A stretch of 64,000 nucleotides of DNA. Source: Candidatus Calescibacterium sp. Its GTDB lineage: Bacteria > Calescibacteriota > Calescibacteriia > Calescibacteriales > Calescibacteriaceae. The stretch covers positions 62,001 to 126,000 of the forward strand of contig JANXBU010000004.1 in NCBI GenBank assembly GCA_025060505.1, written 5' to 3'. Shown piece by piece: positions 5,381-37,317 of this stretch. The notes beneath the pieces were generated by a model. The model saw only the letters and a program-made list of their open reading frames with translations, did not search any database and was not told the origin of the DNA. Numbering within the stretch: the first letter of the stretch is position 1; each line of letters opens with the position of its first letter. Both the position numbers and the translations under genes were made by a program.

Positions 5381-7441
5381 TTACTTCTCTTGGAGCCATT
5401 TTCTTATAACAAGGATTGCAATATCTTTATTTGTAGATACTATATCTCTTGCTACTGAGGTTATTGTTTCTATATCTTCCTCTGGCAATGGAGGAGGAGC
5501 TGCTATTTCTATTGACGGAAGTTCAAAAGTAGGCGGAGGAGCTATTTTTATCTGAGGAAATTCTTCGGGTGGTGGCGGAGGTGGTTTTACTTCTTCCCTT
5601 GGAATCTCTGGTATCTTTATCTCCTCAATTACGACTTCCTCGGGTTTTACTTCTTCAACAGGCTTTACTTCAATTACCTCTGGAGGCTTAACCTCAACCG
5701 GAGGTGGTTTCACTTCCTCAACAGGCTTTACCTCCTCCGGTGGCGGCTTTATTTCCTCAACAATTACTTCTTCTTTTGGAGGAGGTGGAGGAGGTTTATA
5801 CTCTGGGATCTCAACAGGTGGAGGAGGAATTATTCTTATCTCAGGAGGAGGTGGCGGTGGCGCAAGCTCCTCTACTTTAATCTCAATAGGTTGAGGTGGT
5901 GTTATCTCTATAGGAGTAACCGGTGTCGGAGGTGGTGGCACTTCAAAAGCTACTGGGATCTCTATCTTCTCCGGAGGCTGTTTCTCAAACTTTGGTATCA
6001 CAACCTCTACTTCCTGTGGTAATCTCCTTTCAAAAAGTTTCTTGAATATGAGATAAAGCGAGATAAAAAATCCAATGGCAGCGATGGCTAACCATTGGTA
6101 CATACTAGCTCTTTCCTTTGAAAGTTCCGAAAGCTCAAACATAGCAAGCCTTTCCGCATACCTGAATGATCCTTCAAATGGGACTGAAACTACAGAAACT
6201 TGATCTCCTCTCTCTTGCCTTATTCCAACAGCAGATACAACAAAGGAACGAATTCCCTCAAGCTGAGTATCAGGCAAAGGAATGAATTTTACATAAGGTT
6301 TGTTATCTTGCCTTTCTACTTCATACTGACCATCAACCATAACAGCAACAGAGATTCTCTTTATGTCACCAACTTCCTCCTCAACATGCTCAACTATCTT
6401 TGATATTTCATAGTTCCTTATCCTCTCATCTCTTTCGTATTCAGATTTACCGGGAAGAGGCTCTATACCTATGTCTGGTGGAACATTTTCACGCGTTCCC
6501 GGTGGTCCAACTGGAACAGCTCCAACTCCCTTAAATCTTTCTTGAATGGTCTGCTCACTACGAACTGCTGTTTCAAAAGGATCATACCTTTCAGAAACTC
6601 TTTTGACTTTCGTGAAATCAAGTTCAGCGTCAACTTTAACAGCAACCCTCCCCTCACCAACGCTTTTTTCAAGTAGTTCCGTAAGTCTCTCTTCAAGATC
6701 TCTCTCAAATTTTCTTTTGAGCTGTATCTGGGCTTCTGAAGCCTCAACGTGCATTAGTTCTTCTTCCTCCTGCTTTCTCGGTGCAAGAATTCTACCACGC
6801 TGATCTACAACGGTCACATTCTCTGGTTTGAGCCCTTCAATAGAAGATGAAACAAGATGAACAATACCTTTAACCGAACCTGCTGGCATGGAACAACCCG
6901 GAGTAATCCAGAGCATTACAGAAGCTGTTGGATCTTTTTCCTGCTCGGTAAAAAGCTTCTTTTCCGGAAATGCTATATGAATTCTTACATTTTCAACACA
7001 TTGAATTTTTGCTATGGTTCTTTCAAGCTCCCCCTGAATAGCTCTCTGATAATTGACTCTCTGCATAAAGTCTGTCATACCAAAACGAGGAGTATCAAAT
7101 ATCTCAAGCCCCGCTCTTTCTTGTGGAAGACCTTTCTGTGCCAGAGTATTTCTGATCTCAGGTATAAGCTCCTGCGGAATGAAAATAGAATCCGCAGCTT
7201 CAGAAACCTTATACGGAACTTTCATTCTCTCGAGCTCATCAACTATTCTTGAGAGATCCTGAGATTTCAGATCAGTATAAAGTATTCCCCACTTTATTTC
7301 TGGTTCCTTTGTTCTTGATAGATAAATAAATGTGATACCAATACCCAAAGCTAGGAAAAGAGCAGCCGCACCAATAAGAAACGGAAGCGGAATCCTTCTT
7401 ATACCATATGATATCGATTCAAATATTTGTCTTGCTCTCAT
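5381..7441 (-). CDS. fliF: Flagellar MS-ring protein FliF with proline-rich cytoplasmic insert
   Basis: ILYTDLKSQDLSRIVDELERMKVPYKV, GLEIFDTPRFGMTDFMQRVNYQRAIQGELERTI; second TM; C-term VIRKWLQEK FliG-binding tail. Confidence 0.95.
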   Translation of the reverse strand: MRARQIFESISYGIRRIPLPFLIGAAALFLALGIGITFIYLSRTKEPEIKWGILYTDLKSQDLSRIVDELERMKVPYKVSEAADSIFIPQELIPEIRNTLAQKGLPQERAGLEIFDTPRFGMTDFMQRVNYQRAIQGELERTIAKIQCVENVRIHIAFPEKKLFTEQEKDPTASVMLWITPGCSMPAGSVKGIVHLVSSSIEGLKPENVTVVDQRGRILAPRKQEEEELMHVEASEAQIQLKRKFERDLEERLTELLEKSVGEGRVAVKVDAELDFTKVKRVSERYDPFETAVRSEQTIQERFKGVGAVPVGPPGTRENVPPDIGIEPLPGKSEYERDERIRNYEISKIVEHVEEEVGDIKRISVAVMVDGQYEVERQDNKPYVKFIPLPDTQLEGIRSFVVSAVGIRQERGDQVSVVSVPFEGSFRYAERLAMFELSELSKERASMYQWLAIAAIGFFISLYLIFKKLFERRLPQEVEVVIPKFEKQPPEKIEIPVAFEVPPPPTPVTPIEITPPQPIEIKVEELAPPPPPPEIRIIPPPPVEIPEYKPPPPPPKEEVIVEEIKPPPEEVKPVEEVKPPPVEVKPPEVIEVKPVEEVKPEEVVIEEIKIPEIPREEVKPPPPPPEEFPQIKIAPPPTFELPSIEIAAPPPLPEEDIETITSVARDIVSTNKDIAILVIRKWLQEK

Positions 7442-7443
7442 TT

Positions 7444-7767
7444 TTAGAACTGAGCCCTTATAATATTTTCAAAAGCTTGCACAGCTCTGTTCCGTACTTC
7501 AAGAAACAACTGAAACAGAACTTCTGCTTTTTCCCTCGCAATCATCACATCGTGAATATCTTCTATTTCTCCCAAAATCAGTTTAACAGATTTCTCCTGA
7601 GCTTCTTTTCTTGCCTTTGAAACCTCAGTAATTGAAGAAACAAGATCTTGAAAGAAACTTCTTTCCTCTTTCTTCTCAACTTTCTTATCGTGTATTTTTC
7701 TTATGTTATCTTCATAGATTCTATCTATTATTTTTGAAGATGGGACATCTGGAATAATTTTTTCCAT
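7444..7767 (-). CDS. fliE: Flagellar hook-basal body protein FliE
   Basis: SFFQDLVSSITEVSKARKEAQEKSVKLILGEIEDIHDVMIAREKAEVLFQLFLEVRNRAVQAFENIIRAQF; start chosen at MEKIIPD. Confidence 0.88.
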   Translation of the reverse strand: MEKIIPDVPSSKIIDRIYEDNIRKIHDKKVEKKEERSFFQDLVSSITEVSKARKEAQEKSVKLILGEIEDIHDVMIAREKAEVLFQLFLEVRNRAVQAFENIIRAQF

Positions 7768-7808
7768 ATTACATATTTTACAAAACATCTGGGAAATTTA
7801 TCCCCACT

Positions 7809-8030
7809 TTAAAATTTGTCCTTATTAACTTCTTCATCCTCAACTTCAAATACGATATTTCTTGGAAGATTTTGTACAAAAAGCTTTATATTTTCCCTAC
7901 TATCTGACGACTTCACAGAGTCAAGCTCATGTTTCAAAAACTTTGAAAAATCCTCCTTCGGTATATCCTTAATCTTCAAGGATACAGAATTTATCGACTC
8001 AATAATCTCAGATATTTTCTTTGTATCCAT
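7809..8030 (-). CDS. Hypothetical 73-aa protein between flgC and fliE
   Basis: Same strand and tight spacing in a flagellar cluster; no recognised motif. Confidence 0.5.
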   Translation of the reverse strand: MDTKKISEIIESINSVSLKIKDIPKEDFSKFLKHELDSVKSSDSRENIKLFVQNLPRNIVFEVEDEEVNKDKF

Positions 8031-8153
8031 ATATCTAAAATTTAATCATCGCTTATAAAAACTTTTATTTTAGCTTTAACTTGAATTTCTATATTATACA
8101 AATTATTAACTCTTGCCAAACTCTCATCAATGCAACACCAATCAGCTATAAAG

Positions 8154-8687
8154 CTATGTTCTTCTTCCAATTTCAAGAGCAAAGTTAGCAATCTGTCTTG
8201 TGACATTTATAGCATTAACATTTGCTTCAAAAGCTCTCTGAGCAGATATCAGATTAACCATCTCTTCTATTGGATTTATATTCGGATAAGCCACATAACC
8301 TTGCTCATCAGCATCGGGATGACCCGGTTCATATTTCATAATCGGTGGTCTTGGATCCTCAATAACACCTTCAACCTCAACTTTTGAGAACGAATAATCA
8401 ACAGGAATCTTAGTCTCCCTTAAGTTATACTCTATTCTATCTCTTATGAAATCCGGTAGGTAAAATATGTGGAAAACAAGGGGTCTCAAAAACATTTTGT
8501 TTTCATACCAGAATTTTTCATAAATCGGTTTCGCTTCAAATAAAACTTCTTTTCTGGTGTATGGACCACCCTCAGGAGTTCTTGTTGTGTTTATGTTAGC
8601 AAGGTTAGAAGCAATAGTGTTTATTCTTACTCGCTCGGCTCTTAAAGCAGAAGAAGAAATCTCCCAAGACTTTAAAATCGCCCTCAC
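8154..8687 (-). CDS. flgC: Flagellar basal-body rod protein FlgC
   Basis: SSALRAERVRINTIASNLANINTTRTPEGGPYTRKEVLFEA and C-term YVAYPNINPIEEMVNLISAQRAFEANVNAINVTRQIA; GTG start. Confidence 0.93.
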   Translation of the reverse strand: MRAILKSWEISSSALRAERVRINTIASNLANINTTRTPEGGPYTRKEVLFEAKPIYEKFWYENKMFLRPLVFHIFYLPDFIRDRIEYNLRETKIPVDYSFSKVEVEGVIEDPRPPIMKYEPGHPDADEQGYVAYPNINPIEEMVNLISAQRAFEANVNAINVTRQIANFALEIGRRT

Positions 8688-8786
8688 ATCAAATTCTGTG
8701 AAAAAAACGTTCCCTAGGAAAATCTTTCCTATCGGATTGTTCTAAAAAAATAAACACCTGTGAACCTCAATAAAAATTATAACAAA

Positions 8787-9512
8787 ATGAAATACATTAC
8801 ACCCCTGTTCTTTCTGATAGCTATAATAAGTTGTTCTCCAAAGAACAACACAGATAACTTCATTGGCTCTATTATACCGATATATGTTTATCCTGAACCA
8901 AATAATCCAGAGTATAAAAAACTGCTCAACATTTTCGTCTCAAAAATAGTTTATGTTATTATGAACCCCTCAGATGGTCCCGGCAATACCGTAGATACAA
9001 ACTTCAAAAGTGTAATGGAGAATCTAAAACAAAAAAATTACAAGCTCATAGGATATATTTACACAAAGTATGGTATAAGAAGTATAACAGATGTGATAAA
9101 TGACATAGATACGTGGTACTCACTATATCCAACAATAGATGGAATATTTGTTGATGAAGTAAGCTCCGGTAGTGAATCTATTTATTACTACACAACACTG
9201 TACAACTATGTGAAGTCTAAAAACCAATCTGATACTGTTGTTCTTAATCCAGGAGTAGTACCGGATACGAAATATTTTGAAATATCAGATATAATTATAG
9301 TTGCAGAGATAGACGAAAAAACCTTCTTAGAAGAATGGAATGCTGAAAAAATTAAAGCGGAGAAATCAGCTATTCTTATATACGGTGTGCTGAACAAAGA
9401 TAGCGTAATCAGAAAAGCAATTTCCAACAACATTGCATACATTTACATAACCGACGAAAACCCAAATACTTGGTATAAGATAAGTAAGTATCTACAAGAC
9501 ATTGTTAAATAG
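8787..9512 (+). CDS. Lipoprotein with spherulation-specific family 4 (spherulin-4-like) domain
   Basis: Lipobox FLIAIISCSP; IIPIYVYPEP..., NYKLIGYIYTKYGIRS, DGIFVDEVSS, VVLNPGVVPD pattern of spherulin-4/TIM-barrel proteins. Confidence 0.75.
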   Translation: MKYITPLFFLIAIISCSPKNNTDNFIGSIIPIYVYPEPNNPEYKKLLNIFVSKIVYVIMNPSDGPGNTVDTNFKSVMENLKQKNYKLIGYIYTKYGIRSITDVINDIDTWYSLYPTIDGIFVDEVSSGSESIYYYTTLYNYVKSKNQSDTVVLNPGVVPDTKYFEISDIIIVAEIDEKTFLEEWNAEKIKAEKSAILIYGVLNKDSVIRKAISNNIAYIYITDENPNTWYKISKYLQDIVK

Positions 9513-19953: not shown

Positions 19954-22900
19954 CTACCTTGAGATATTTGAAGTACCGTCAGAATTAAGCCTTACCCTAT
20001 AAATCGTTCCATCTGCATCCTGCACCTCGCCACTCCCCGATCCATCCGGTAAAACCAAATATCTTCCTCTTATAAACCTTCCATCAAGAGTTACAAGATC
20101 AACACTGAAAGACATTGAACCATCCTCCTGAGAGTCTCCTTTAATCAAAAATGTTCCGTCCGCGCTCACAAATCTTCCAGACATTTCTGATTTACCGGTT
20201 CCTTTGTAATTGCTCACCTTCATCGTTCCCTCCAATCCCTTGTCAGTTCCCCTAATCTTCAAGTCAAATGATTGTTTGGTCGAGTCCTCAGCAAAATCAA
20301 AAACTTCAATATCTGTTTTCTTCTGATCATCACAACCGTATATTGAACAAGACCTGAAATCTGCCTTTGCCTTCTGCGAACATAAATTATAAGATGAACT
20401 TTTCCTATCTCCTCTTATGTATTCATATCCATCCTTCACCTTTTTTATACTTACAAATTCCCCTGTTTTTGCATTAACGATCTTCAAACAGTATCCCGCA
20501 ATCTCATCGGATTTATACTCTGGTGCTCCAAATAACAGGCCCTGACATTTATCAAAACCCTCACAGCTTCCATATCCTGAAAGAGAACAGTTCGACTTTA
20601 TGAACTTTTCTAAATCTTCTCCTTTTTGTGGGCAAGAATCTATCTTGCAAATACCGAGTTCCACATTACACCTTATTCCAGATGTAGCTTGTGAAACGTA
20701 GGTCACCGGTCTATCTATCAGAGATTCATCCACACTACAGTATGCAACCGCAGATGAGCCATCCGGCTTTATAATAGCTATGGTGATCCTACGAGATGTC
20801 CTGAAGTCACTTGGCAAAATAGATATAATGATTTCTTCCTTCTTATCGTTGTCAAAATCACCTCTCCAGCAGGTTTTTCCACCCTCAAGATAGCCTGAAT
20901 CCTGCCACTTGCATCCGGAAGGATTACAATCAAATGAGCATTCTTTTCCTTCGTAAAATTTGCAGTTACCTGCTTGACACTCTGATTTTCTTGCTCTGCC
21001 ATCTCTCTTTACAGCCACAGAATATCGCTGACCACCACAAGCTCCACTGATAATTTTACTCGGAACACCATCTGTTTCAAAATTGTTCTGCACACAAGAC
21101 TGGTAAGGTTCTCCAGCTTTACCGTTGCCAGTGTATGAACCAACATTTTTCATATCGCATGTAGAAATAATTGATTCAATGTATTCTATAGCTTGATCTA
21201 TCGAGTATCCAAAATCTTTACAAGAAGAAGCTGGGAACTTACATTTACCTTTTCCAACCTCAGCGGAGGACATATAATTGTAACACTGACCCTCACCGAA
21301 ACACATAGTAATCATAAGATAATTACCTTCCCCGTATATGTTTTTTCCAACCCAGATATCAATTGAAAATCCATCTTTCTGCTTGATATAAAAGCCATCA
21401 GGCTTTCCATCTTTGTTCCAGTCTATAAGGTAACAACTGTTGTAGTTATCCCATTTTACTCCGGAACCCTCGTAGTTGGTCTTGCAAGAAGATATAAGAT
21501 TTTTCAAATAATCCTGATTCCCACTACAAGCAAGATCCTTTATGAAACCCCTATCTATATTTGAGCAACTGTATTCAGCTATGGTACAATCCATTTTATT
21601 ATAGTAAGAGCAAGAGTCAACATATACTTTGCCCTCAGATATATCTACTTTGTACTCTCTCTCTTGAGAAGAGTACTTGTATGAGATCTCCGATTTTAAA
21701 GCATCATACGAACACTTATCACCAGAACTTATGTGAGTTATGTTGCAATCCTTTGTAATACTGTTCAGATAATTCTCGAACACATCACATCCTAGATTCT
21801 TTACAAATCTATCATCCATACCGGAACAAGAATATTTAGTGAAAACACAGCTACTGCCCTGATTAGAGCATGAAACCTCTTCTACTTTGCCCACAGCCAC
21901 ACTGATTCTCCTTCCACCACCAGCAGTAGAGTACCTGTAAGAAATCCCCGGATTCAAAGCGTCATACGAACAAACTTTTCCTTCCGGATATCCTGAACTA
22001 TAACTTCCACCCTCTATTGAGCAGTTTTGTGTAAGACTTCGTAAAAAAGAATTAATACTCTGATAGTCATACATATTTACACAGCTCAAATTTGGCATCG
22101 GCTTGCATCTTAATCTAACAGAAGCGTTTTTTGAACCAGAAATAAAGTTTATATCAATTTTACCCTGATCATGGTCAGCAGATAAAAACACATCACAAGT
22201 TACGGAAGAACTGAATATCTTTGAAAATTCACAAGATGGTAGGTTGGAAAACTTTATGAAATCTACTTTGCTATCTTGATTACTGTCAGATGATGAACAT
22301 ATGCCTCCCTGACAGTAGTTGTCTAATATAGATTCAAAATCGTCATCATATCTATGACAACTTATTTTTATCCATTCATGATCTGGGACCTGACAGATAC
22401 GTTCAATCAAGGTACACTGTGTATATCCTTGTCCAAAACAAAAACTTTCCCTAGCAGTTGTCCGGTTTATTGTAATATAGCGTGTCGCCGAAGAACCATA
22501 AACAGAGTATGAGACACTTTGAGCATCATTCTCAATCAAACAGTAATTCATAACTTCATCTGGATCAGTTTCAGTATTGGTATAACTCACATTTTCTACG
22601 GAACAGTAGTACAAGAGCCCTTGCAAAAATGACCAGAAATCTAGGTCATTGTGTTTTCCACAGCAGCAGTTGAGATTAGGCAATGAAGTACACAAAAGAG
22701 AAACAGATGCATAATCCACCCCAGATATGAAAACAACGTCAACCCTGTTGGAGCCAACAATAAATACAGATACGGTACAGCCTTGATGAAAATTATTCCT
22801 GAAATAGAACATGTAATGTGGATGATAGTAAAGTGCAGAAGTAACATATTTTGGGAAATTACAATGAAAACCAGACAGTTGAACAAAATTTACACTTTCA

Positions 22901-23079
22901 GGCTTTCCATCGTTGTTATAGTCGCATTCGCTACATTTTCCAATGGAAGAGCAACTACTTGCCTGCTTTTCTCCAAGTCTCGGAGCAGAAAGAAATGGAC
23001 AATAGCCTGATTGCGAAAGATAATTCAGTCTTGGCGCCGTTTGAGGCTGTATCCTTCCTGTAACCATTTGATCGCTCAA
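19954..23079 (-). CDS. Giant Cys-rich modular protein with repeated units and D-x-N-x-DG motifs
   Basis: 1041-aa ORF; repeats such as CSYDALNPGISYRYS.../CSYDALKSEISYKYS..., SCSGMDDRFVKNLGC/SCSNIDRGFIKDLAC; Ca-loop-like YNNDGKPE, DWNKDGKPDG, DFDNDKKEE. Exact start uncertain. Confidence 0.75.
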   Translation of the reverse strand: MSDQMVTGRIQPQTAPRLNYLSQSGYCPFLSAPRLGEKQASSCSSIGKCSECDYNNDGKPESVNFVQLSGFHCNFPKYVTSALYYHPHYMFYFRNNFHQGCTVSVFIVGSNRVDVVFISGVDYASVSLLCTSLPNLNCCCGKHNDLDFWSFLQGLLYYCSVENVSYTNTETDPDEVMNYCLIENDAQSVSYSVYGSSATRYITINRTTARESFCFGQGYTQCTLIERICQVPDHEWIKISCHRYDDDFESILDNYCQGGICSSSDSNQDSKVDFIKFSNLPSCEFSKIFSSSVTCDVFLSADHDQGKIDINFISGSKNASVRLRCKPMPNLSCVNMYDYQSINSFLRSLTQNCSIEGGSYSSGYPEGKVCSYDALNPGISYRYSTAGGGRRISVAVGKVEEVSCSNQGSSCVFTKYSCSGMDDRFVKNLGCDVFENYLNSITKDCNITHISSGDKCSYDALKSEISYKYSSQEREYKVDISEGKVYVDSCSYYNKMDCTIAEYSCSNIDRGFIKDLACSGNQDYLKNLISSCKTNYEGSGVKWDNYNSCYLIDWNKDGKPDGFYIKQKDGFSIDIWVGKNIYGEGNYLMITMCFGEGQCYNYMSSAEVGKGKCKFPASSCKDFGYSIDQAIEYIESIISTCDMKNVGSYTGNGKAGEPYQSCVQNNFETDGVPSKIISGACGGQRYSVAVKRDGRARKSECQAGNCKFYEGKECSFDCNPSGCKWQDSGYLEGGKTCWRGDFDNDKKEEIIISILPSDFRTSRRITIAIIKPDGSSAVAYCSVDESLIDRPVTYVSQATSGIRCNVELGICKIDSCPQKGEDLEKFIKSNCSLSGYGSCEGFDKCQGLLFGAPEYKSDEIAGYCLKIVNAKTGEFVSIKKVKDGYEYIRGDRKSSSYNLCSQKAKADFRSCSIYGCDDQKKTDIEVFDFAEDSTKQSFDLKIRGTDKGLEGTMKVSNYKGTGKSEMSGRFVSADGTFLIKGDSQEDGSMSFSVDLVTLDGRFIRGRYLVLPDGSGSGEVQDADGTIYRVRLNSDGTSNISR

Positions 23080-23527: not shown

Positions 23528-26409
23528 ATGAATACAGTTCAGAGGGATAGATATACAAAAAAATAATGGCGTTTTTCTTGTTGTTGATCAGCTCAAGAGC
23601 TTTTGCTGAAGAGATATGCCCGGTTCCATCGACAGGTAGCATAGGAACAACAACTTTCTCAACATTCTTTGATTTTGGCTTCCGTTTTGATCCTGAAGAT
23701 ATAACCACAGCAGTTAAAGTGATAAATAGGACATCAAATAGCAGGGTTTCTCCAGCTCTCAGGGGTTGGGTTGATCTACATACTCATCCTATGGCTCACC
23801 TTGGCTTTGGACGCAGAGTATTCCATGGAGCTCCAGATGTTGACATTCTTATGCCGCACCCCCGGGGAGATTGTAAAGGATTATACAGACCAACAACTCC
23901 GGAACAGGCACTCCATAACTGCAATTATACACACGGCGGATGGGGATTTGATAACGGGTGTGGAAATCATATCCGCGCTATAGTAATTAACCACGCACTT
24001 GATAGCAAATTTCGCGAAGATTGGGGAGGTAGCGGTAATGTACACGGAGATCATCACCATCATGGTTTGAGCGAAGGACTTCCTTTTTGGCCTCATCATA
24101 GCTCAAAACTTCATCAGCAGATGTGGTGGGAATGGTTAAAGAGAGCAAGAGACGGAGGACTCAGAGTAATCGTAGCTCTTACGGTAAACAATGAGTTACT
24201 GGCAAGAATAACAAACGGCGATCCACCATTTGATGACAAATCTGTTGCAGATATGCAGATAGATGAAACTATAAGATTTGTAAGAAGACACCAAGATTTT
24301 ATGGAAATCGCCTACTCCGCCGCTGATCTAAGACGCATAGTGAGCCAGAACAAAATAGCAGTCATATTAGGTATGGAAGTAGATAAATGGGGAAACTTCG
24401 GAGCCGGAGTAGAGCCAACTGAAGAAGCTGTGGTTCAGGAAATAATAAGACTATATCGAAAAGGTGTAAGATACTTCTTCCCAGTGCATCTTATAGATAA
24501 CCCATTTTCTGGAACAGCACTATACAATTATCTGTTCGCCCTAGTCAATAAACGTCTAAATGGATACTGGCCAGAACTTGAATTAAGCGCAGATACGCGG
24601 ATCAACTTTAATTTTGGATCTGTTGGCGCGCTAGGTGCTATAGAACGATTTGCCGAAATAGGACAGTTCTTCCCTGGTCCGTATGGAGCTATCTCAAAAG
24701 CTATTATGGATACGGTCCGTGCCATTATTATAGGCCTTGAACACGCGCCCGGATGTGTTGAATGGCCATTTGAATGTGTCGTACCTGGAGCTGCTTTTTT
24801 TCCACATACATGTTGTCCTGAGCCTTTTGGTTTTCTAAAATGTTGTGCAGAGTACAGAGAGATAAAGAGAGTTCTTGAGGATCTTCCTCCACCTCACTAT
24901 ATAACTAGCGGAGGCGTGATAAACAGACGTGGGCTAAGCGATATAGGAAGAGTAGCTATATTTGAGATGATGAAGCTCGGTATGCTTATAGATATTGACC
25001 ACATGTCTCTGAAGGCTCAGCGAGATACAATTGCTTTCGTAAGAGGTTTCGGAGGCTACCCACTTATAATGGGACACAACAATATTATCAAACCAGAGTT
25101 AGGCAGAGAAAGAGATGCTCTCCCAGAGATTGTAAGAGAAATAAGCGAAATGGGCGGTATGTTCGGTATAGGAACCGTTCATTCTACCCCGGGGGAGTTT
25201 ATAAGGCGATTTAAAGCTGCTTGGGAGGCTATGGGGAGACGCGCAGTAGCTATAGGTTCAGATGTGAACGGCTTTGAAACACTACCACACCACGAACGTC
25301 CCAAAACCAGACAAAGCTCCCACGAATTCTATACAGATTTCTTTGCTACATATCCATACATCCTATCACCAGGTTTAACAGCAGCAAACGTTGAAGAATT
25401 CAAAAGACAATTCCCAGCAATTACAACAATAGACAGTACACCAACCGGTGCAAGACTTAACAGAAGAACCTTCAGTCCAAATATGTGGGACTACATAGCA
25501 GAAGGTGGAGTATCACATTATGGCCTTATGCCCGAATTTCTTTTTGATGTTTACCGACAAGGAAGAGAAGGAATGGAAGTAATAGAGGCTTTGATGAACT
25601 CAGCGGAATACCTTGCCCAAACATGGGAGACAGCAGAAAGAAGAGCAAGAGAAATTCTTGGAGTATCGGCGGAAGGAAGAGGCACAATCACTGTTAATCT
25701 ACCCCCAATAGAAAACCTATGCCCCTACGGAAATCCTAATCGGGGTGATAGAGAATTTGATGGTCACGGACCGAGAATTATAATGACAGTATCTGTTGAA
25801 GTCTACCCACGCGATAGAAGATATCTACAAGCTACTGTTCGCTTTAGAGCAGAAGAAACTACACACGACTGGTCTACCATACAGAAAGAATGGACAATAG
25901 ATACTTTTGGTCCTCCAGCACCACCTGGAACAGTTTATCATAGAGTCGTGGGCGAAAGCGGCAGCTCAATAGACGTAGTACTGCATGGACATAACTGCCG
26001 ACACGAAATTATTCCACGCTCCGGTCCAGTTGCAAAAATTATACTTGTTGGAGATACAATGGGAACCGATATTAATGAAGATCCAAACTGTGCCGATTGT
26101 GATGATACTCGAATTGTAAGAATTGAATTCAGACCAATACAAGTGGAAGTCGGTCCTCCGGGGGAAAGACCGTTTGAAGGTATGAGAACAAGAGATCGAT
26201 ATATGTACGGTCAGATAGATGGAGCAAACTCCGGAAACAATTCTGAGCAAAATTCCGAAAGCGGATTAGAAACTAGTTCATATGCGAATAAGAATTACGG
26301 TTGTTCTATATTCTCCTTTGGCTCTATATCATCTGCTATACTGTTTTCAATCATCATACTGTACATGCTAATGAGAAAAAGGAAAAGTATATTCAAGCAA
26401 AAAATATAG
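23528..26409 (+). CDS. M19 (membrane dipeptidase)-like surface protein with C-terminal GC + TM tag; apparent frameshift in A7 run near the signal peptide
   Basis: GWVDLHTHPM, VILGMEVDKWGNFG, LIDIDHMSLKAQRD, PLIMGHNN, AIGSDVNGFE match M19 metal-ligand blocks; SD AAGGAGGAG + ATG at 23528 is out of frame with the body by 1 nt. Uninterrupted ORF is 23566..26409. Confidence 0.75.
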
Positions 26410-27940: not shown

Positions 27941-29140
27941 ATGCTTGAAAGAATTCCTTTGGGGAAAGCAGACGTTGAACCTGGAACACCGGTCAAGAAG
28001 ATGAAAGCTGTTGTGGTACGCCCTGATAGATTAGGAGATCCGATAAAATCAATGAAAGTCGAAGAAGTTGATGTTCCCGAACCAGGACCAGGAGAAGTTT
28101 TGGTTTATGTAAAAGCAGCTGGAGTTAATTTTGATGGAGTCTGGGCAGCTCTGGGCAAACCCATCAATGTTATGAAGTATACCGGATACGATTTTCACAT
28201 CGCTGGCTCAGATGCATCAGGAATAGTATGGAAAGTTGGTCCCGGTGTTAAGAATGTAAAAGTTGGAGACAAAGTAGTTATACACTGCAATCAATCATGT
28301 GGACAGTGCCCTCAATGCAATGGACTTGACCCTATGGCTTGTGAAGAGCAGAAAATATGGGGTTATGAATCAAACTGGGGCTCTTTTGCTCAGTTCTGCT
28401 TAGTTCAAGCTCAACAAATTTTACCGAAGCCAAAGCATCTGAGCTGGGTAGAAGCTGCAAGTTATCCACTCACATATTTTACAGCTTGGAGAATGCTTGT
28501 CAAGCACGCAGAAATAAAACCGGGAGATGTTGTTCTTATATGGGGTGCAGCAGGAGGACTTGGAATATTCGCTACACAGATATGTCTTATATCAGGAGCT
28601 ACTCCTGTATGTGTTGTATCTTCACCGGAAAAATCTGAGATCCTCAAATCATTTGGAGCAAAACTCTTTATCAACAGAAAAGACTTTGACATTGCACCTA
28701 AAAACGGCAAAATAGACGAAAAAACAGCTAAAGAAATGAAAAAATTCAGAGATGAAATAAGACGTCTTACCGGCGGGAAAGATCCTGATATTGTATTTGA
28801 ACACGTTGGACAGGAAACATTCCCAACCAGCGTCTTTGTAGTTGACAGATTTGGTAAAGTCGTTATATGCGGAGCAACTACCGGATACAACCTTATGTTC
28901 GATGTAAGACACCTTTGGGTAAGACAGAAGAAAATTATTGGTTCTCACTTTGCAAACGCATACGATGCCCACAGAGCAAACGAACTCGTTATGCAGAAGA
29001 AAATAAAGACTTTCGTTTCAAAGGTTTTCGAATTTGAAGAAACTCCGCTTGCTCACCAACTTATGTATGAAAACAAACACTACGGAAAAATGGTTGTGAA
29101 AGTTCAGGTTGAGGACGAAAATGAAGGAAGAGAAGAATAA
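27941..29140 (+). CDS. Crotonyl-CoA carboxylase/reductase-like zinc-independent MDR oxidoreductase
   Basis: NGLDPMACEEQKIWGYESNWGSFAQFCLVQAQQILPKPKHLSWVEAASYPLTYFTAWRML, GASGG-type AAGGLGIFATQ, HFANAYDAHRANELV; Ccr-family pattern. Confidence 0.82.
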   Translation: MLERIPLGKADVEPGTPVKKMKAVVVRPDRLGDPIKSMKVEEVDVPEPGPGEVLVYVKAAGVNFDGVWAALGKPINVMKYTGYDFHIAGSDASGIVWKVGPGVKNVKVGDKVVIHCNQSCGQCPQCNGLDPMACEEQKIWGYESNWGSFAQFCLVQAQQILPKPKHLSWVEAASYPLTYFTAWRMLVKHAEIKPGDVVLIWGAAGGLGIFATQICLISGATPVCVVSSPEKSEILKSFGAKLFINRKDFDIAPKNGKIDEKTAKEMKKFRDEIRRLTGGKDPDIVFEHVGQETFPTSVFVVDRFGKVVICGATTGYNLMFDVRHLWVRQKKIIGSHFANAYDAHRANELVMQKKIKTFVSKVFEFEETPLAHQLMYENKHYGKMVVKVQVEDENEGREE

Positions 29141-29275
29141 AGAAGAAAGACAGAAATCACTGAACAAAAAACAAAAATACAGAAAACCTTTAAATCAGAA
29201 TATCGATTGCTAACGGGTTGTAGTAAAACAGAAATCTGCATTGAATAAAAGAAACACACAACTCAAATACAAAAG

Positions 29276-31003
29276 TTATGATTCCATATGGTTGAGTAAT
29301 TCCTTATAATATGGATAGCCACTTGTTAATTCTTTTACTTCATTCTTAACAGAGTTTATAACATTGCTATCAAATTTTGAAGCTATGACCTTATTTATAA
29401 GCTGTACTATCTTTCTTGCTTCTTCTTCTTTCATACCACGTGTTGTTATTGCAGCAGTTCCAACCCTTATTCCAGAAGGATTCATCGGAGGTCTCTGATC
29501 AAATGGTATGACATTCTTGTTCAAAACTATTCCAGAGTTGTACAGGGCAGACTCAACTTCGGCACCACTAACACCTTTTGGAGTTACATCAACCAAAACT
29601 ATATGTGAATCTGTACCACCCGTAATGACATTATATCCAAGTTTCAGAAATTCATCGGCCATCGCTCTTGCATTTCTTATAACTTGTGTGCAGTAATCTT
29701 TGAAATCATCCTCCATTGCTTCTTTGAAAGCCACAGCTTTTGAAGCTATAACATGCATAAATGGTCCGCCTTGTGAGCCCGGAAATACGGCAGAGTCTAT
29801 TTTTTTCGCATGTTCAGACTTTGAAAGAATCACAGCTCCACGCGGTCCCCTTAATGTTTTATGAGTAGTAAACGTAACAAAGTCTGCAAACGGAGTTGGG
29901 TTCGGAAATACCCCAGCAGCAGCGAGTCCAGCTGGATGAGCAATATCTGCCAAAAAGTAAGCTCCAACTTCCTTTGCTATTTCAGAAAAAGCTCTGAAAT
30001 CTATTGCTCTTGGATACGATGAAGCTCCAGCTATTATTATCTTCGGTCTCTCCCTCAAAGCGATCTCCCTGACCTCGTTCATATCTATCAGATGAGTCTG
30101 TTTGCTCACAGTGTATGAAACAGATTTATATATTTTTCCAGAGAAATTAACTTTTGCTCCATGAGAAAGATGTCCGCCAGATGAGAGATCAAATCCTAAT
30201 ATTTTATCTCCAGCTTCACAAAAAGCTAAATAGACCGCCTGATTTGCCTGAGTTCCAGAGTGTGGTTGAACATTAGCGTGTTCCGCCGAAAACAGTCTCT
30301 TCACCCGTTCTCGTGCAATTTCCTCAACCTGATCAACAAACTCACATCCCCCATAGTATCTCTTTCCGGGATATCCCTCCGCGTACTTGTTATTCATCGG
30401 ATTGAACAGAGCGATGAGCGATCTCAAAGAAATCATGTTTTCAGAAGCTATCAGATTTATCATATATTCCTGTTTCTTAATCTCACCAACGATAGCTGAA
30501 AAAACCTCCGGATCAAATTTTCTCAGGGAAGAAAAATATGGAAAAGCAGATTCCAAAATCTCTCTTTCTATGTCTGCTATTTTTTCTACTCTTTTTCTGT
30601 GTCTTGAATCCGAACTGAAAGACGACTCCATAAAAGTCTTCAGAAGTTCCTTCACATACTCAAAATCGAAAATTCTACCAGAGAAAGCTAAAAGATTTGC
30701 GTCATTATGCATTCTTGACATTCGTGCTGTGTACTCGTTGAATATCAAAGCTGCTCTTACACCAGGGAACTTGTTTGCAACTATAGACATTCCAATACCA
30801 GTTCCACATATAAGAACCCCAAAATCCGCTTTCCTCAAGCTTATCTCCTTTGCAACGGCAGAAGCTATATCTGGATAATCTGCAGAGTTGGTAGAAAAAA
30901 CCCCTTTATCTTCACAAATCACACCTATTTCATCAAAGTATTTTTTTACCTTCTCCTTCAACTCAAAACCAGCATGATCTGAACCTATTACAACACGAGT
31001 CAT
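29276..31003 (-). CDS. Fusion: ribose-5-phosphate isomerase B (RpiB) + serine hydroxymethyltransferase (GlyA)
   Basis: N-term MTRVVIGSDHAGFELKEKV...LICGTGIGMSIVANKFPGVRAAL; C-term MINLIASENMIS...EGYPGKRYYGG...FTTHKTLRGPRGA...; one uninterrupted 575-aa frame. Confidence 0.95.
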   Translation of the reverse strand: MTRVVIGSDHAGFELKEKVKKYFDEIGVICEDKGVFSTNSADYPDIASAVAKEISLRKADFGVLICGTGIGMSIVANKFPGVRAALIFNEYTARMSRMHNDANLLAFSGRIFDFEYVKELLKTFMESSFSSDSRHRKRVEKIADIEREILESAFPYFSSLRKFDPEVFSAIVGEIKKQEYMINLIASENMISLRSLIALFNPMNNKYAEGYPGKRYYGGCEFVDQVEEIARERVKRLFSAEHANVQPHSGTQANQAVYLAFCEAGDKILGFDLSSGGHLSHGAKVNFSGKIYKSVSYTVSKQTHLIDMNEVREIALRERPKIIIAGASSYPRAIDFRAFSEIAKEVGAYFLADIAHPAGLAAAGVFPNPTPFADFVTFTTHKTLRGPRGAVILSKSEHAKKIDSAVFPGSQGGPFMHVIASKAVAFKEAMEDDFKDYCTQVIRNARAMADEFLKLGYNVITGGTDSHIVLVDVTPKGVSGAEVESALYNSGIVLNKNVIPFDQRPPMNPSGIRVGTAAITTRGMKEEEARKIVQLINKVIASKFDSNVINSVKNEVKELTSGYPYYKELLNHMES

Positions 31004-31098: not shown

Positions 31099-31704
31099 CT
31101 AAGTTTTATGAGCTGGTTTAGTATCCAAAAATACTCTGAATATGTAAGGATTCAGTATAACCCATATTTTTTTATCTAACTCCACTTCAACAAAAGGTAT
31201 GTTGATACCCTGAAAAAGTATTTCTATTTCGTTTCCAAATGTTTCTTCACCTTCAACAAAAACAGATGTTATTTCAGATGAAACTTTTTTCTTACCAACC
31301 TCTTTCCATTCACAAACAGCTGGTCCGATTTCCTCAAATTTGAAAGGTATAGTGAATCCAAGTTCAGTTTTAAGTTTTTCTATCTCCTTTTCTCTCTCCT
31401 TCCACTCCTCATCCTGGTATTCAGTTGGTAAACATCTGAAAACCTTTATTTCTCTTTCTTTCTTCAAGATTGAAATTTTTACTGGCTTCTTATTATTCAG
31501 AGATTCCCTGAGTATATCTGAAAAAACTGAAGCAAACAATCTAGCGTCAGACTTTGCTTTTTCCTGAGAAACAAAAGGCAAAGAAGGGAAAACCAATCCT
31601 AAAAAAAGTGATATAATTCCCAAAACAATAGCTAACTCTATCAATGTAAATGAGCGAAAAACTTTGGAAGTAGGAACATTTCTGCAACATTTCACCAATT
31701 TCAT
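31099..31704 (-). CDS. GspH-like type II secretion pseudopilin
   Basis: RSFTLIELAIVLGIISLFLGLVFPSLPF class III/prepilin N-terminus; next to the GspG-like gene. Confidence 0.78.
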   Translation of the reverse strand: MKLVKCCRNVPTSKVFRSFTLIELAIVLGIISLFLGLVFPSLPFVSQEKAKSDARLFASVFSDILRESLNNKKPVKISILKKEREIKVFRCLPTEYQDEEWKEREKEIEKLKTELGFTIPFKFEEIGPAVCEWKEVGKKKVSSEITSVFVEGEETFGNEIEILFQGINIPFVEVELDKKIWVILNPYIFRVFLDTKPAHKT

Positions 31705-31749: not shown

Positions 31750-32145
31750 TTATTGCGCAACCTGAGATTCTGTAGATATATCATCTTGCGTTCCGATTGA
31801 TTTATCTGGACCAGCCGATTTCAGTGTAAAAGTCTTACCGTCTGAAACATAGTAATACTCGCTTCCCCACGGATCCTTTGGAATTTCCTTTCCCTTGAGA
31901 TATCCACCCTTAACAAGTGATCCTACGCCCTCATCTGTAGTTGGATATCTTCCCTGCTCCATTTTATACAATTCAAGAGCTTGCTCTATCATACTTATTT
32001 GGGTCTTCGCTGTTCTTTCTCTCGCTCTTTCAAAATATCTTACAACATTTATACCTACAAGTCCTGCCAAAAGTCCCACAATAAGAACAACAACCATTAT
32101 CTCTATCAATGTAAATGCTTTCATCTTTCTATTCTTCCTTTCCAT
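31750..32145 (-). CDS. gspG: Type II secretion major pseudopilin GspG
   Basis: MKAFTLIEIMVVVLIVGLLAGLVGINVVRYFERARERTAKTQISMIEQALELYKMEQGRYPTTDEGVGSLV...PKDPWGSEYYYVSDGKTFTLKSAGPDKSIGTQDDI. Confidence 0.95.
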   Translation of the reverse strand: MERKNRKMKAFTLIEIMVVVLIVGLLAGLVGINVVRYFERARERTAKTQISMIEQALELYKMEQGRYPTTDEGVGSLVKGGYLKGKEIPKDPWGSEYYYVSDGKTFTLKSAGPDKSIGTQDDISTESQVAQ

Positions 32146-32413
32146 AATAAAAAATATAAAAACTAAGAAACAAAAATGTGAATAGATAGTAAAATGTTTA
32201 ATAGAACATTTCATAGAGCTGTGAATTGAAAAAAATGATTACTCATTATACTTTTTCTCATCTTCTTCTCCAGAGATAATGCTTCAGAGATTTCAAAGAC
32301 AAGATTTACTCTGACAGAGGTTACATTGAAGGGAGGGTTGTAGGTTCGGACAGTTTTACTTTATTTTTTGTATTTATTTTTTTGAAATTTTGAATGAAAG
32401 GAATGAGAAAGAG

Positions 32414-32443: not shown

Positions 32444-35400
32444 TTATCCGTTAATCCTTCTTCTTATGATAGCTAATGAAATCATCACACCTGCGAATAC
32501 AATCCAGGAAACAGAGGCAGTAGAACAACCAAGTATTCCTGCATTTTCTGTTACAAAGAATCTGTGTGTATATTGTGATATATTTCCTACATCATCTTTT
32601 GCTTTTATCTTCAGAATATGTTCACCTTTTGAGAGTCCGCTAAGTTCTATTGATGTAAGCTCATTAGCCGGAACCCACTGTGACCACTCTCCATCATCTA
32701 CAGCATAAGATACGAGAACCTGATCGGCCGAAGCCTGTGCGTCCTTCACATCTGCAAAGAATACTGCTTTAGAACCTCTTACTACCTCTGGAGCAGTTAC
32801 ATTTATATCTGGACCAAGCGAATCGACTCTGAATACAAACTTAGCCGGAGTTGGATCTATAAGTTTTTCTCCATCCTTTGCTCTAACCTCAAAGACATGC
32901 CATCCCTCTAGCAGGTGTGTTAGAACAACGGAATTTTCTTCAGACCAAAGGTTCCATGTTCCACCATCAAGCCTCCATGAGTATCTTACCTTGTCTGAGT
33001 TTGGAGACCAACCGGAAAACTCTATTCTTGTATAAAGTGCACTTGGATCTGATGTATGCGTTATGAATGTTTCAGGTGGTGTTATCATTTTTCCATTGCC
33101 ATTGACAGTGTAATCAGCAAACCTAACATTCATTGGAACACCCGGAGCAAGACCAGCTATACTACCAATTGTGTCAACAAGGTCAATACCAAGACCGTTG
33201 AGGAGTTTTACTATATTACCAAATGTTGGTCTTCCACGCCAATGTATAAACATTTCAAAGTAGTCTCCTATACCATCTGTTGTTGCACCAGGCGCATTGT
33301 GTGGGAACGCGGTATCCCAGGGCAGATTACCAAACTCAGGGCCAACCCACGGGAAGTTGAATTCCATAGGTATCTGTAGTAAAGCAGCAGGATCAAGTGC
33401 AACTCTTAGCTTTGCTCCAGCGAGTCCGTTAAGAACAACCGGGAGGATATTTCCAAGTATCTCTGCCCAGTTTGAACCAGAAAGTCCCAAAGCATTAGAG
33501 TTGTATGCAATGAAGTATCTCACATCTGGATCAACATATAGTGTGAGATCTATAACTCTTGCAAATGTTCCTCCCTGTGGGAAGTAGTTTCCACCTCTAT
33601 CCGTGGTCTGACCAGTGTAATAGTTCCTGTAGAATGATGTTAGAGGTTGCGAAAAGTCAGTAGAGTCTATATTCGGGAACCTCACAGTTCGTGCACAATC
33701 TGGTGAAACACAAGGGACTATATCTATATCAACAGAAAGCATCAGACCAACCGTTAATCCAAATACTCTCATCCAATTGTGGTTTGCATTAGTAATATTT
33801 CCTGTTGTTACAACATTAAACGAAAGGTCTATGTATGGAAGGTCTATTAGCAAATCAGCTGTATCGAACCATGTTGTTGGTGAAACAAACATTGTGAATC
33901 CACTTCCAAATGTCGCATTCTGTACAAATTGATCCCAGAAGTTATTTCTTGTTGAACCTGTAGAGTATACGGAGAGAACTGGTCTGAATGTAGGTCCTCC
34001 GGTTTTTGAATATGCCACAACCGATAGCGGTCTATTATACGTTGCAGCTCCACCGCTATTACCAGAAGGAGAACCAGGATCTTTGTAGTTTGGTATTATC
34101 TCGATTGCCATTTCCTTGTTTGGGAATGAGTCTTTGAGTTTTGGCATAAAGAAAGCAAAAGAATCTGTATTTAAGAATCCACCTGCAAAGCTTCCAAGCA
34201 TTGGTGTATATTTGTCCACCCATATACAAGCTATACCGTCTCCAACAACTTCGTATAATATTCTTGATACAAGGTTATGGTGTATTCCTACTCCAACATA
34301 GTAATTTGTTACAGAATATCCATATCTACCTTCTGCAAGTGTTGGTGCCACTGGATACTGCGGTAAGAACTGCGAGGAGAAGACATGTGGGAACTGTCCG
34401 TTATTTGCGTTAAGATTACCTGTACATTGAGCAACGGTTCTTATAGTTGACGGACAACCTGTTTGAGGAACACACTCTCTTATAGGAATGATCTGGCTTG
34501 TTGCAGCCTTAGGCATAGGAGTAGCAAACTGAACACAGGATGTAACGTATTGATTGAAGCTTGCTCTCTTCACGTCTGAGAGGCTCGTAGCAGAAGAGTT
34601 CCATATAACATACCTTATATCTGTTGCAACATTCATTGCCAAAAGAATTCCCGCCGAATCTGCCCAAAAGTCATTAGTGAATCCGAGATCTATGAATATC
34701 TTATTTGGTTTATGCTCATAGTATGTAGTAGCTCCAACATAAACTACTTCTTCCATAGGATGTTCTATTGGGTTCAAAGATTCAAGTATATCTTTCAAGT
34801 CAAAAACCTGACCCGGGAACAAGAAGTATGCTATACAAGTATCGTACTGATTCACCGTAGTTTTTCCGCTTACACAGCTTACATTAAAGTTATCAATTGC
34901 AATCAATCTCAAAACAGCATCAAGCCATAACAATGTTCTTGCAACCTTCTGTGAAACTCTGTATTCTGGACAGTACTGCGCTGATCCTACTGTGTTCCAA
35001 GCAATGTTTCTGCAAGCAGGAGTAGTTACAGAGGCAGCCATTGGAATCATATCATAAGCTATTCCTGCAATGACATCCAAACCTTTCAAGTTTATACCAA
35101 GACCTCTTACGACCTGCGCCCAATCTGTATGGTCTGTGAAATTACCCTTAATTTGGATTCCAAGCCTTAAGCCCAAAATCGGTATCCTTAAATAAACTCT
35201 ACCATTTACATAGTTTGATATAACACGGGATTCATCATATGTGAATGTTGTATTATTTGGCGTCTCCCACTGTGGATCACATATATGCCTGTCATTTATG
35301 GCGTCTCTATTCTTGAAACAATATGAAAGAGCGTTGGGGAAAGAAGTTACACCAGGGTTAAATTGACAAACATTTCCCACCCAAACACAATCTACATATC

Positions 35401-36469
35401 TTGTCTGCGAATCAACATAAGGAGACGAAAATGTCAGTGCAAGCTCAAAGTTTCTCAGCTCAACTGATATATCAAGTCTATCATCTGATGTATGTTCTGT
35501 AAGATCTCCTTCACAAGTTGCAGTTGCAGGGTAGTCCGTTCCTATATCTTCGTTTAATCTTACCGTAACAGCATCTCTTTTGTAATCAACAATTAGCCTA
35601 TTATAGGTCACTCGGTCTAAGAAGAAAAATGGATCCCAGCTTTGTGGAGGCGATATAGGACAAAATGTATTAGCATTATCTAATCCACATTTTCCAAATG
35701 GTCTCCATGACCATCCACCCATTGCAAACGTTATCGGATTTGAAGATGTTCCAACTCTTTTATCTCTTTCCTGTCCCCATATCACACCATTCAAACATAT
35801 AGGAGCTCCTTCATCGTTTAGAAGAGGAATCGGTAAACACAAAGAAATAAGTCCTTTTCCATCATCTTTACACTGATTAGTTCCTTCATCCCAAGTTCCA
35901 GTTGGGTTATATCCTGCTATATATTCAAAGTAAATATCATTACCGAAACAGTGAGTGACTCCTTCTCCAAGGCTAAAATTCGGAGCAGTTGTTGTTATAC
36001 CACATGCAGCAGTCGAGTTATTCCAGTAATATGAATATGTTGGATTATTTGGATAGTTATTTGTAAGCCATTCTTGAAATTCTTGTAAGTTATCCCAGAA
36101 ATCTGCAACAACCTTAGTGTCTGTACATCTGTCAAGAAATGTCATAGCCAAGTAATTAACAAGATTTGCAACCGACGGATCTCCGGAAAGAATATCTGAT
36201 ATAAGTTCTCCGATCTCGTTTAAACCAGATTTTGTAAGTCTTACAACAACGTTGTGCTTTTCAAACTGGTTTCTGTAAAGAATAGAAGTAACACCATCAA
36301 GTCCTCCCCAGGTAATCGGATTTCTAAAACCGGCTGAATATGGGTTAGCTGATGTTTCATTAAGACTCCTCCTTCTTTGAGCAGATGCGTCTGAGACAAA
36401 GATAAGAACAAGACCTACAAAGAATGAAAAGACCGCAAAAGCCCTTGCCTTCTTTATTATACCTGCCAT
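32444..36469 (-). CDS. Large exported protein with BPI/LBP (TULIP)-like segments, C-terminal Ig/Y_Y_Y-like domains and GC + TM tag
   Basis: Start at MAGIIKKARAFAVFSFFVGLVLIFVSDASAQ with SD GGGAGG; NVVVRLTKSGLNEIGELISDIL; VGVGIHHNLVSRILYEVV...LNTDSFAFFMPKLKDSFPNKEMAIEIIP; C-term LGCSTASVSWIVFAGVMISLAIIRRRING. Track ORF starts at 36577. Confidence 0.75.
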   Translation of the reverse strand: MAGIIKKARAFAVFSFFVGLVLIFVSDASAQRRRSLNETSANPYSAGFRNPITWGGLDGVTSILYRNQFEKHNVVVRLTKSGLNEIGELISDILSGDPSVANLVNYLAMTFLDRCTDTKVVADFWDNLQEFQEWLTNNYPNNPTYSYYWNNSTAACGITTTAPNFSLGEGVTHCFGNDIYFEYIAGYNPTGTWDEGTNQCKDDGKGLISLCLPIPLLNDEGAPICLNGVIWGQERDKRVGTSSNPITFAMGGWSWRPFGKCGLDNANTFCPISPPQSWDPFFFLDRVTYNRLIVDYKRDAVTVRLNEDIGTDYPATATCEGDLTEHTSDDRLDISVELRNFELALTFSSPYVDSQTRYVDCVWVGNVCQFNPGVTSFPNALSYCFKNRDAINDRHICDPQWETPNNTTFTYDESRVISNYVNGRVYLRIPILGLRLGIQIKGNFTDHTDWAQVVRGLGINLKGLDVIAGIAYDMIPMAASVTTPACRNIAWNTVGSAQYCPEYRVSQKVARTLLWLDAVLRLIAIDNFNVSCVSGKTTVNQYDTCIAYFLFPGQVFDLKDILESLNPIEHPMEEVVYVGATTYYEHKPNKIFIDLGFTNDFWADSAGILLAMNVATDIRYVIWNSSATSLSDVKRASFNQYVTSCVQFATPMPKAATSQIIPIRECVPQTGCPSTIRTVAQCTGNLNANNGQFPHVFSSQFLPQYPVAPTLAEGRYGYSVTNYYVGVGIHHNLVSRILYEVVGDGIACIWVDKYTPMLGSFAGGFLNTDSFAFFMPKLKDSFPNKEMAIEIIPNYKDPGSPSGNSGGAATYNRPLSVVAYSKTGGPTFRPVLSVYSTGSTRNNFWDQFVQNATFGSGFTMFVSPTTWFDTADLLIDLPYIDLSFNVVTTGNITNANHNWMRVFGLTVGLMLSVDIDIVPCVSPDCARTVRFPNIDSTDFSQPLTSFYRNYYTGQTTDRGGNYFPQGGTFARVIDLTLYVDPDVRYFIAYNSNALGLSGSNWAEILGNILPVVLNGLAGAKLRVALDPAALLQIPMEFNFPWVGPEFGNLPWDTAFPHNAPGATTDGIGDYFEMFIHWRGRPTFGNIVKLLNGLGIDLVDTIGSIAGLAPGVPMNVRFADYTVNGNGKMITPPETFITHTSDPSALYTRIEFSGWSPNSDKVRYSWRLDGGTWNLWSEENSVVLTHLLEGWHVFEVRAKDGEKLIDPTPAKFVFRVDSLGPDINVTAPEVVRGSKAVFFADVKDAQASADQVLVSYAVDDGEWSQWVPANELTSIELSGLSKGEHILKIKAKDDVGNISQYTHRFFVTENAGILGCSTASVSWIVFAGVMISLAIIRRRING

Positions 36470-37317
36470 GGTATTTACCTCCCTTGATATTTTTTCTAAG
36501 GATTTCATACCAAAACTATAATCATTCATTTTTAAAAAGTCAAGCAAAAGTGACACTATCTTCGCCTTATTTTTCAAGGGATCCAGAATTCAGAATTTGC
36601 AAATTCACAAAAAATCATCATTTTGTGCACAATTTGGCCATTTATTATCTACACGGAGAATAATCCACAAGAGTTAAAATTAGCATAGCTAATTTTTAGC
36701 ATAGATAACACTGGGAGGAACGGAGAGCGGATATGATTTCATGAATTATTTTTGCATATGAAATAATATCCTTTTGATATTTTCCACAGAAGGTATCAAA
36801 TATCTGCAATAAACAAAAGAACTAAGGAATCTACACCAGTTTTTCTATGCTTAGCAAAACAATATCAAAAGCTCTGGCCGAGCCATAACCTGTTGTATAT
36901 TCAAAAATGCTAACAAAAAATTTTATCTCAAGCTTACCTATAGGACAAATAACCAATATTACAACTATCTCATAAAACCATTTGTCCCTTCATCAGCTCC
37001 ATTATCTCGTTTTTCCGGAAAATCACTTTTCTTCCCCATAATGGAGACGTCCCAATAAAAAATCTAATTCAGATCCACTATAGCATAAAATAAAAGACAC
37101 AATGGAGTATTAAAAATTTGCCACGGTTCTTCTATTTCATAGCAAATCGGCAGTTTTATCATTACAAGATCTATTTATCATACACGATTATACACAAGCC
37201 TTTTCTCGATTCTCGGATATCTACTCTTACAATCTAGGAACTATTTTTTGTTTGCAGCAAAGTCAATAAGCTACAACACTTCCCAAAAATCTAAAACAAA
37301 TCAAGGTCTTTGAGAAA

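Follow-up and report, generated by a model that had tools for sequence, protein, structure and literature searches.

Results

Genes and tails of the window

The stretch of DNA analysed here (hereafter, the window) is 64,000 nucleotides long and corresponds to positions 62001-126000 of contig C60 in the genome G000. A preliminary description had noticed that three large exported proteins encoded in the window end in Gly-Cys, a single hydrophobic helix and basic residues, and all of these tails were indeed present. The features concerned are as follows:

about 1-2321, minus strand: GH15-like exported protein, 787 amino acids in full, with its 3' end beyond the window (full open reading frame at L003 5958-8321, the same contig read beyond the window)
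1-77, continuing past the edge, minus strand: C-terminal tag of the GH15-like protein
23566-26409, plus strand: peptidase M19-like exported protein, 947 amino acids (PF01244, 58.1 bits; cut-off, 26)
26296-26409, plus strand: C-terminal tag of the M19-like protein (YGCS, helix, RKRKS)
31099-31704, minus strand: gspH-like minor pseudopilin gene (TIGR01708, 29 bits; below the cut-off of 80)
31750-32214, minus strand: gspG, type II major pseudopilin (TIGR01710, 102.1 bits; cut-off, 88.85), directly downstream of the gene for the 1377-residue protein
32444-36577, minus strand: 1377-residue exported protein with a weak Ig/Y_Y_Y-like match near its end
about 32447-32533, minus strand: C-terminal tag of the 1377-residue protein (LGCS, helix, IRRRING)
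62434-63405, plus strand: lgt, prolipoprotein diacylglyceryl transferase (TIGR00544, 130.6 bits; cut-off, 118.9)

The M19-like protein ends in YGCSIFSFGSISSAILFSIIILYMLMRKRKSIFKQKI and the 1377-residue protein in LGCSTASVSWIVFAGVMISLAIIRRRING. The position first given for the former tail stands, whereas the latter tail is encoded on the minus strand, at about 32447-32533, the plus-strand reading being nonsense. The open reading frame of the GH15-like protein (3-2321, minus strand) is cut by the edge of the window; reading of the same contig beyond the edge shows the end SGCQCRSFSTESLLLLLLILTVYFIMMRFTGRYKNFNRV, and the basic end is therefore real also in this tail. The N-terminal signals claimed for all three proteins are supported by hydrophobicity and cleavage-like motifs (AFA|EE, DASAQ, and SVFA|Q), from which alone export signals were assigned throughout this study. 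The GH15-like protein was furthermore matched by the oligosaccharide amylase model TIGR01577 with 76 bits, below its cut-off of 820.7.

Elsewhere in the window, a Cys-rich protein of 1041 amino acids with a weak FG-GAP match, no C-terminal tag and an uncertain start is encoded at 19954-23079 on the minus strand, and a Spherulin4-family protein (PF12138, 144 bits) with a lipoprotein-like start (FFLIAIISC) at 8760-9512 on the plus strand. Open reading frames at 5381-8687 on the minus strand resemble, by eye, flagellar FliF, FliE, and FlgC. The G+C content of the genome is 36.7%, and flagellar-looking and beta-oxidation-looking genes are found in it; these features would agree with the published description of Calescamantes (PMC4791363), an assignment that is a guess. 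Among the genomes compared, only four are closer to G000 than the same domain, and all of them belong to the same family; the phylum is thus isolated there, and it is not Myxococcota.

Distribution of the tag

As an unbiased sample, contig C60 and 267 kb of contig C27 (about 19% of the genome) were examined, which promptly gave a fourth tagged protein of 1868 amino acids ending in GEVGCSYTNSYLMLVLIIYAVVLLLIRRAK. A single C-terminal helix with basic residues was found in 9 of the 264 sampled proteins with at least 200 amino acids, and four of the nine had Gly-Cys at 26-44 residues from the end. Given the expected rate of 0.014 per protein for Gly-Cys in that position, the probability of finding at least four among nine is 5e-6; this value measures the observation and is no fresh test, because the three proteins of the window that prompted it lie inside the sample.

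Models of the tail were then grown stepwise from 4, 9, 17, and 28 tails, and every candidate C-terminus was read. The model made from four tails of G000 picked up tagged exported proteins in the sister genomes, and the tag of the M19-like protein was recovered by the successive models. The preliminary description had proposed to scan the genome for more tagged proteins and had regarded a lack of them as evidence against a sorting system; instead, eight further C-terminal tags and two internal ones were found. C-terminal tags in G000 hence number 11, namely those of the M19-like, 1377-residue and GH15-like proteins and of proteins with 1868, 1586, 758 (partial), 621, 1958, 681, 1800, and 763 amino acids, while the two internal tags are in proteins of 1356 and 2673 amino acids. 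Tags were also found in all four other genomes of the family. When the 17-tail model was applied to 60 genomes and we counted those matches that begin with Gly-Cys and lie in frames no shorter than 300 amino acids, 27 matches were obtained in the five family genomes versus one in the 55 unrelated genomes. Most of the 27 were training tails, and the remaining held-out matches were true C-terminal tags; the lone unrelated match was a MYXO-CTERM protein in a myxosortase-bearing genome. Several other candidates (L064, L065, L098, L101-L103, and others) were rejected as chance matches that are not at C-termini. Also, three loci in the sister genome G002 (L142, L143, and L144) encode nearly identical tails of 40 residues including the linker (GTSQTDQTEFTSDQDQELTSKFGCSVSGFGYLIF...), which suggests that the tag module may have been copied recently.

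The preliminary description had also raised the question of whether existing TIGRFAM sorting models match these tails. None of the NCBIfam sorting-signal models (TIGR03901, JDVT-CTERM, Synerg-CTERM, LPXTG, and others) reached its cut-off on the tags tested: the highest scores were 9.5 bits with JDVT-CTERM (cut-off, 27) and 15 bits with Synerg-CTERM (cut-off, 22.5). The MYXO-CTERM model TIGR03901 had no match in G000 even at an E-value of 10, and its best scores in the sister genomes were 15.7-16.0 bits (cut-off, 20) for the orthologues of the 1377-residue protein in G001 and G003.

A candidate processing enzyme

One CPBP protease exceeding the Pfam cut-off was found in G000:

contig C38, about 28692-29351 (L008 10693-11352), minus strand: CPBP (glutamic intramembrane) protease, 219 amino acids (PF02517, 74 bits; cut-off, 22.4)

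Each of the other four family genomes has exactly one CPBP protease like this. A candidate for the co-occurring sorting protease, the search for which had been proposed as a check, is hence present as one myxosortase-type CPBP in each of the five genomes, although in five genomes of one family co-occurrence is not separable from shared ancestry. With the Mrt_core model (NF040914), the five family enzymes score 86.9-98.6 bits, just under the cut-off of 100, versus 44 bits or less for generic CPBPs. The enzyme of G000 scores 101.7 bits with MrtP, 97 with Mrt_core, 92.8 with MrtC, and 76 with MrtX, all below the cut-offs. Indeed, the family enzymes are far under the cut-offs of MrtX, MrtC, MrtP, MrtS, MrtZ, and MrtJ; for example, MrtJ gives 49.8-57 bits (55.6 for G000; cut-off, 75), and MrtS gives 60-73 bits (73.3 for G000; cut-off, 130). 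The residues E128, E129, R133, H170, and H206 are invariant in the alignment (A5), and the motifs EExxxR, FxxxH, and H are intact.

The best matches of the enzyme in the 55 unrelated genomes are bimodal, with either 82-142 bits (eight genomes) or 44 bits or less. MYXO-CTERM-like tails (E-value up to 1) were detected in seven of these eight high-scoring genomes and exceeded the cut-off in five; this finding supports the view that enzymes of this branch are paired with Cys tags. In a phylogenetic tree, all of the 13 myxosortase-like rows are placed together, apart from the generic CPBPs, with support of 93/88 and in 96% of bootstrap trees, and the five family enzymes form their own clade (100/99). 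Among the unrelated genomes, one of 1.5 Mb (G014; L278 and L279) encodes a myxosortase-like enzyme (82.5 bits), and proteins of this genome that contain CxxCH haem motifs end in MYXO-CTERM-like tails. No tagged gene was found near the CPBP gene, the neighbours of which are not conserved, and a search of solved structures with the CPBP alignment retrieved no relative but only a weak unrelated match.

The preliminary description had supposed that this lineage has its own Cys-type tag and sorting enzyme. While the shared tag and a candidate enzyme are borne out, the enzyme is not of a new kind but lies within the myxosortase branch of CPBP, and "its own" is therefore to be understood as a variant that has diverged within the MYXO-CTERM/myxosortase type. 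One may go further and regard the tails as plain MYXO-CTERM, merely AT-rich, with a laterally acquired MrtX, as would fit both the position of the enzyme inside the myxosortase clade and the TIGR03901 scores of the 1377-residue orthologues. No tag in the five genomes, however, reaches the cut-off of TIGR03901, and those of G000 are not matched even at an E-value of 10; furthermore, the MrtX model gives only 68-78 bits on the family enzymes against a cut-off of 180, and a clade of their own makes a recent transfer unlikely. Plain MYXO-CTERM is hence considered to be rather unlikely.

Conservation of the tag and its cargo

The tag begins in most cases with Gly-Cys, which is followed by a few polar residues, a single hydrophobic helix, and basic residues at the end. 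Cys is invariant in some 35 tags from the five genomes and is mostly followed by Ser, while Gly is replaced in two, namely by Ser in an orthologue (L285) and by Ala in a model match (G003_1466), with Cys retained in both. Because the models were seeded on Gly-Cys, its conservation among the model matches is partly built in, and the sample and the orthologue comparisons are more independent points than those matches. Between the 1377-residue protein and its G003 orthologue (L232), the body is 68% identical, while only 11 of 26 residues are identical in the tail; nonetheless, LGCS is retained, as it is in the G001 orthologue (L233). Similarly, the GH15-like protein and its orthologue (G003_801) share 54% of the body and 8 of 24 residues in the tail, with the Cys tag retained. 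GGC is also retained in members of the 621-residue family from all five genomes.

These observations bear on the possibility that the tails merely anchor the proteins in the membrane by their C-termini and are not cleaved, with a Cys residue that is incidental or in a disulfide. The helix and the basic end would alone suffice to anchor a protein, and five of the nine single C-terminal-helix proteins in the sample lack Gly-Cys; these five are, however, short (203-344 amino acids) and look like a different class, whereas all four large exported proteins in the sample have Gly-Cys. Also, orthologues retain Cys although their helix sequences diverge, and Cys is replaced in none of the tags (in part a matter of selection, as described above); both points argue against a plain anchor, which we thus regard as very unlikely. 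Similarly unlikely is cleavage of the tag by a rhomboid protease in the manner of rhombosortase and GlyGly-CTERM: each of the five genomes has one rhomboid that exceeds the cut-off, and GlyGly-CTERM is likewise tripartite and linked to type II secretion (PMC3237569), but rhomboids occur in 14 of 14 control genomes, the one tested (L257) matches no NCBIfam model, rhombosortase included, at an E-value of 1e-5, and an invariant Cys, as found in the tag, is what characterises the myxosortase group.

The tag is missing from M19 homologues in other organisms, of which the one from Larkinella stops where the linker begins; the tag is therefore an added module. Indeed, it sits on unrelated domains (M19, GH15, M6, S8 (subtilase), MopE metal-binding, RCC1, FG-GAP, PKD, and Ig), and its cargo consists largely of hydrolases and adhesin-like proteins, as has been reported for MYXO-CTERM (PMC11980579). 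The MYXO-CTERM layout, i.e., an N-terminal signal (judged by hydrophobicity only) and a tripartite tail with invariant Cys, helix, and basic end, is thus found in this family.

Probable export route, double signals, and internal tags

The GspD secretin of the type II system exceeds its cut-off of 351.35 bits in all five genomes (460-477 bits), and the gene of the 1377-residue protein is directly upstream of gspG and the gspH-like gene on the same strand in G000, G001, and G003. Lgt, encoded in the window, has been proposed as the likely acyl-transferase for MYXO-CTERM (PMC11980579), and by analogy the lgt product may be the Cys-lipidating enzyme here.

Of the 23 tagged proteins for which the start could be read, 13 have a lipoprotein-like Cys residue after the N-terminal helix, whereas in G031, a myxobacterium-like genome, this was seen in 2 of about 12 (Fisher p = 0.03); the count was made by a simple rule of our own, with slightly different thresholds per set and one case judged by eye, and the excess is hence to be treated as a lead. 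Loci noted for tagged proteins with a start of this type are L017, L135, L189, L190, and L192 in G000 and L138, L139, L142, L144, L146, L193-L195, L283, and L284 in the sister genomes. Proteins with both signals would possibly be lipidated at both ends.

Internal tags followed by a second signal peptide occur in the two proteins of G000 mentioned above (1356 and 2673 amino acids) and in chains of G001 and G003:

L136 3026-7096, minus strand: internal tag, second signal peptide, OmpA C-terminus
L287 601-8622, plus strand: internal tag, second signal peptide, OmpA C-terminus
L286 2718-9434, plus strand: internal tag, second signal peptide, OmpA C-terminus
L138 2960-9145, minus strand: internal tag, second signal peptide
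L197 3157-8499, plus strand: internal tag, second signal peptide

In the three chains that finish in OmpA, choice-of-anchor D/VesB-like Ig domains precede the tag. The same internal-tag layout is known in MXAN_5598, which has been likened to TraA plus TraB (PMC11980579).

Discussion

The tails described here are very probably C-terminal sorting signals of the MYXO-CTERM type, belonging to a divergent MYXO-CTERM/myxosortase-type system. Sequence provides an N-terminal export signal, a flexible linker, the tag, one myxosortase-type CPBP per genome, a type II system, and Lgt; from these, we infer cleavage of the tag by the CPBP enzyme, lipidation of Cys, and delivery to the surface. Namely, Sec would export a tagged protein, which would stay in the inner membrane through its tail helix, the tag Cys would be lipidated, possibly by Lgt, and the CPBP protease would cut just after Cys to free the helix. 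The protein, now anchored by its lipid, would then be brought by the type II system to the outer surface of the outer membrane. In the chains in which an internal tag precedes a second signal peptide, this cleavage together with that by signal peptidase may yield two halves, of which one would be an adhesin at the surface and the other an outer-membrane/OmpA part.

This system resembles that of MYXO-CTERM and MrtX in Myxococcus xanthus (PMC11980579) in the signal peptide, the invariant Cys, the helix, and the basic end, in the large adhesin and hydrolase cargo, and in the CPBP enzyme and type II secretion. The internal-tag/barrel/OmpA architecture is also as in MXAN_5598, where the barrel is assigned to our chains by analogy, with no match to a barrel model. 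In contrast, the family tags are under the TIGR03901 cut-off, with Cys mostly followed by Ser rather than in GCGC, the enzyme is under the cut-offs of both Mrt_core and MrtX in a lineage outside Myxococcota, and N-terminal lipoprotein-type signals seem to be commoner in the family. JDVT-CTERM is also a Cys-type tag, and its enzyme, MrtJ, is a CPBP protease from the same branch (PMC11980579), while Synerg-CTERM is paired with the related MrtS according to the NCBIfam description; the tags and enzymes of the family are nonetheless under the cut-offs of those models, and each family genome has many substrates, none of which was found beside the enzyme. GlyGly-CTERM with rhombosortase shares the tripartite tail, an intramembrane protease, and type II cargo, and a VesB-like Ig domain (PF22544) is found on some tagged proteins of the family, but the family differs in the invariant Cys, the protease family, and the lack of a match to the rhombosortase model.

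It is also conceivable, although less likely than not, that the lineage has a Cys tag of a separate kind, together with a myxosortase subfamily of its own, and uses the tag both on doubly lipidated proteins, with lipid at the N-terminal lipoprotein Cys and at the C-terminal tag Cys, and as an internal cut site, which would split one chain into a lipid-anchored adhesin and an outer-membrane/OmpA partner as a one-gene analogue of TraA/TraB. The internal-tag chains provide a natural test of myxosortases as polyprotein-splitting enzymes. In addition, the gene of a tagged protein adjoins those of type II pseudopilins in a conserved order.

In conclusion, Cys-type C-terminal sorting would extend to an isolated and apparently uncultured lineage. 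No curated tag model fires there, and the surface proteome of this lineage is therefore invisible to present annotation, for which our analysis yields a model of the tail and one candidate enzyme for testing.
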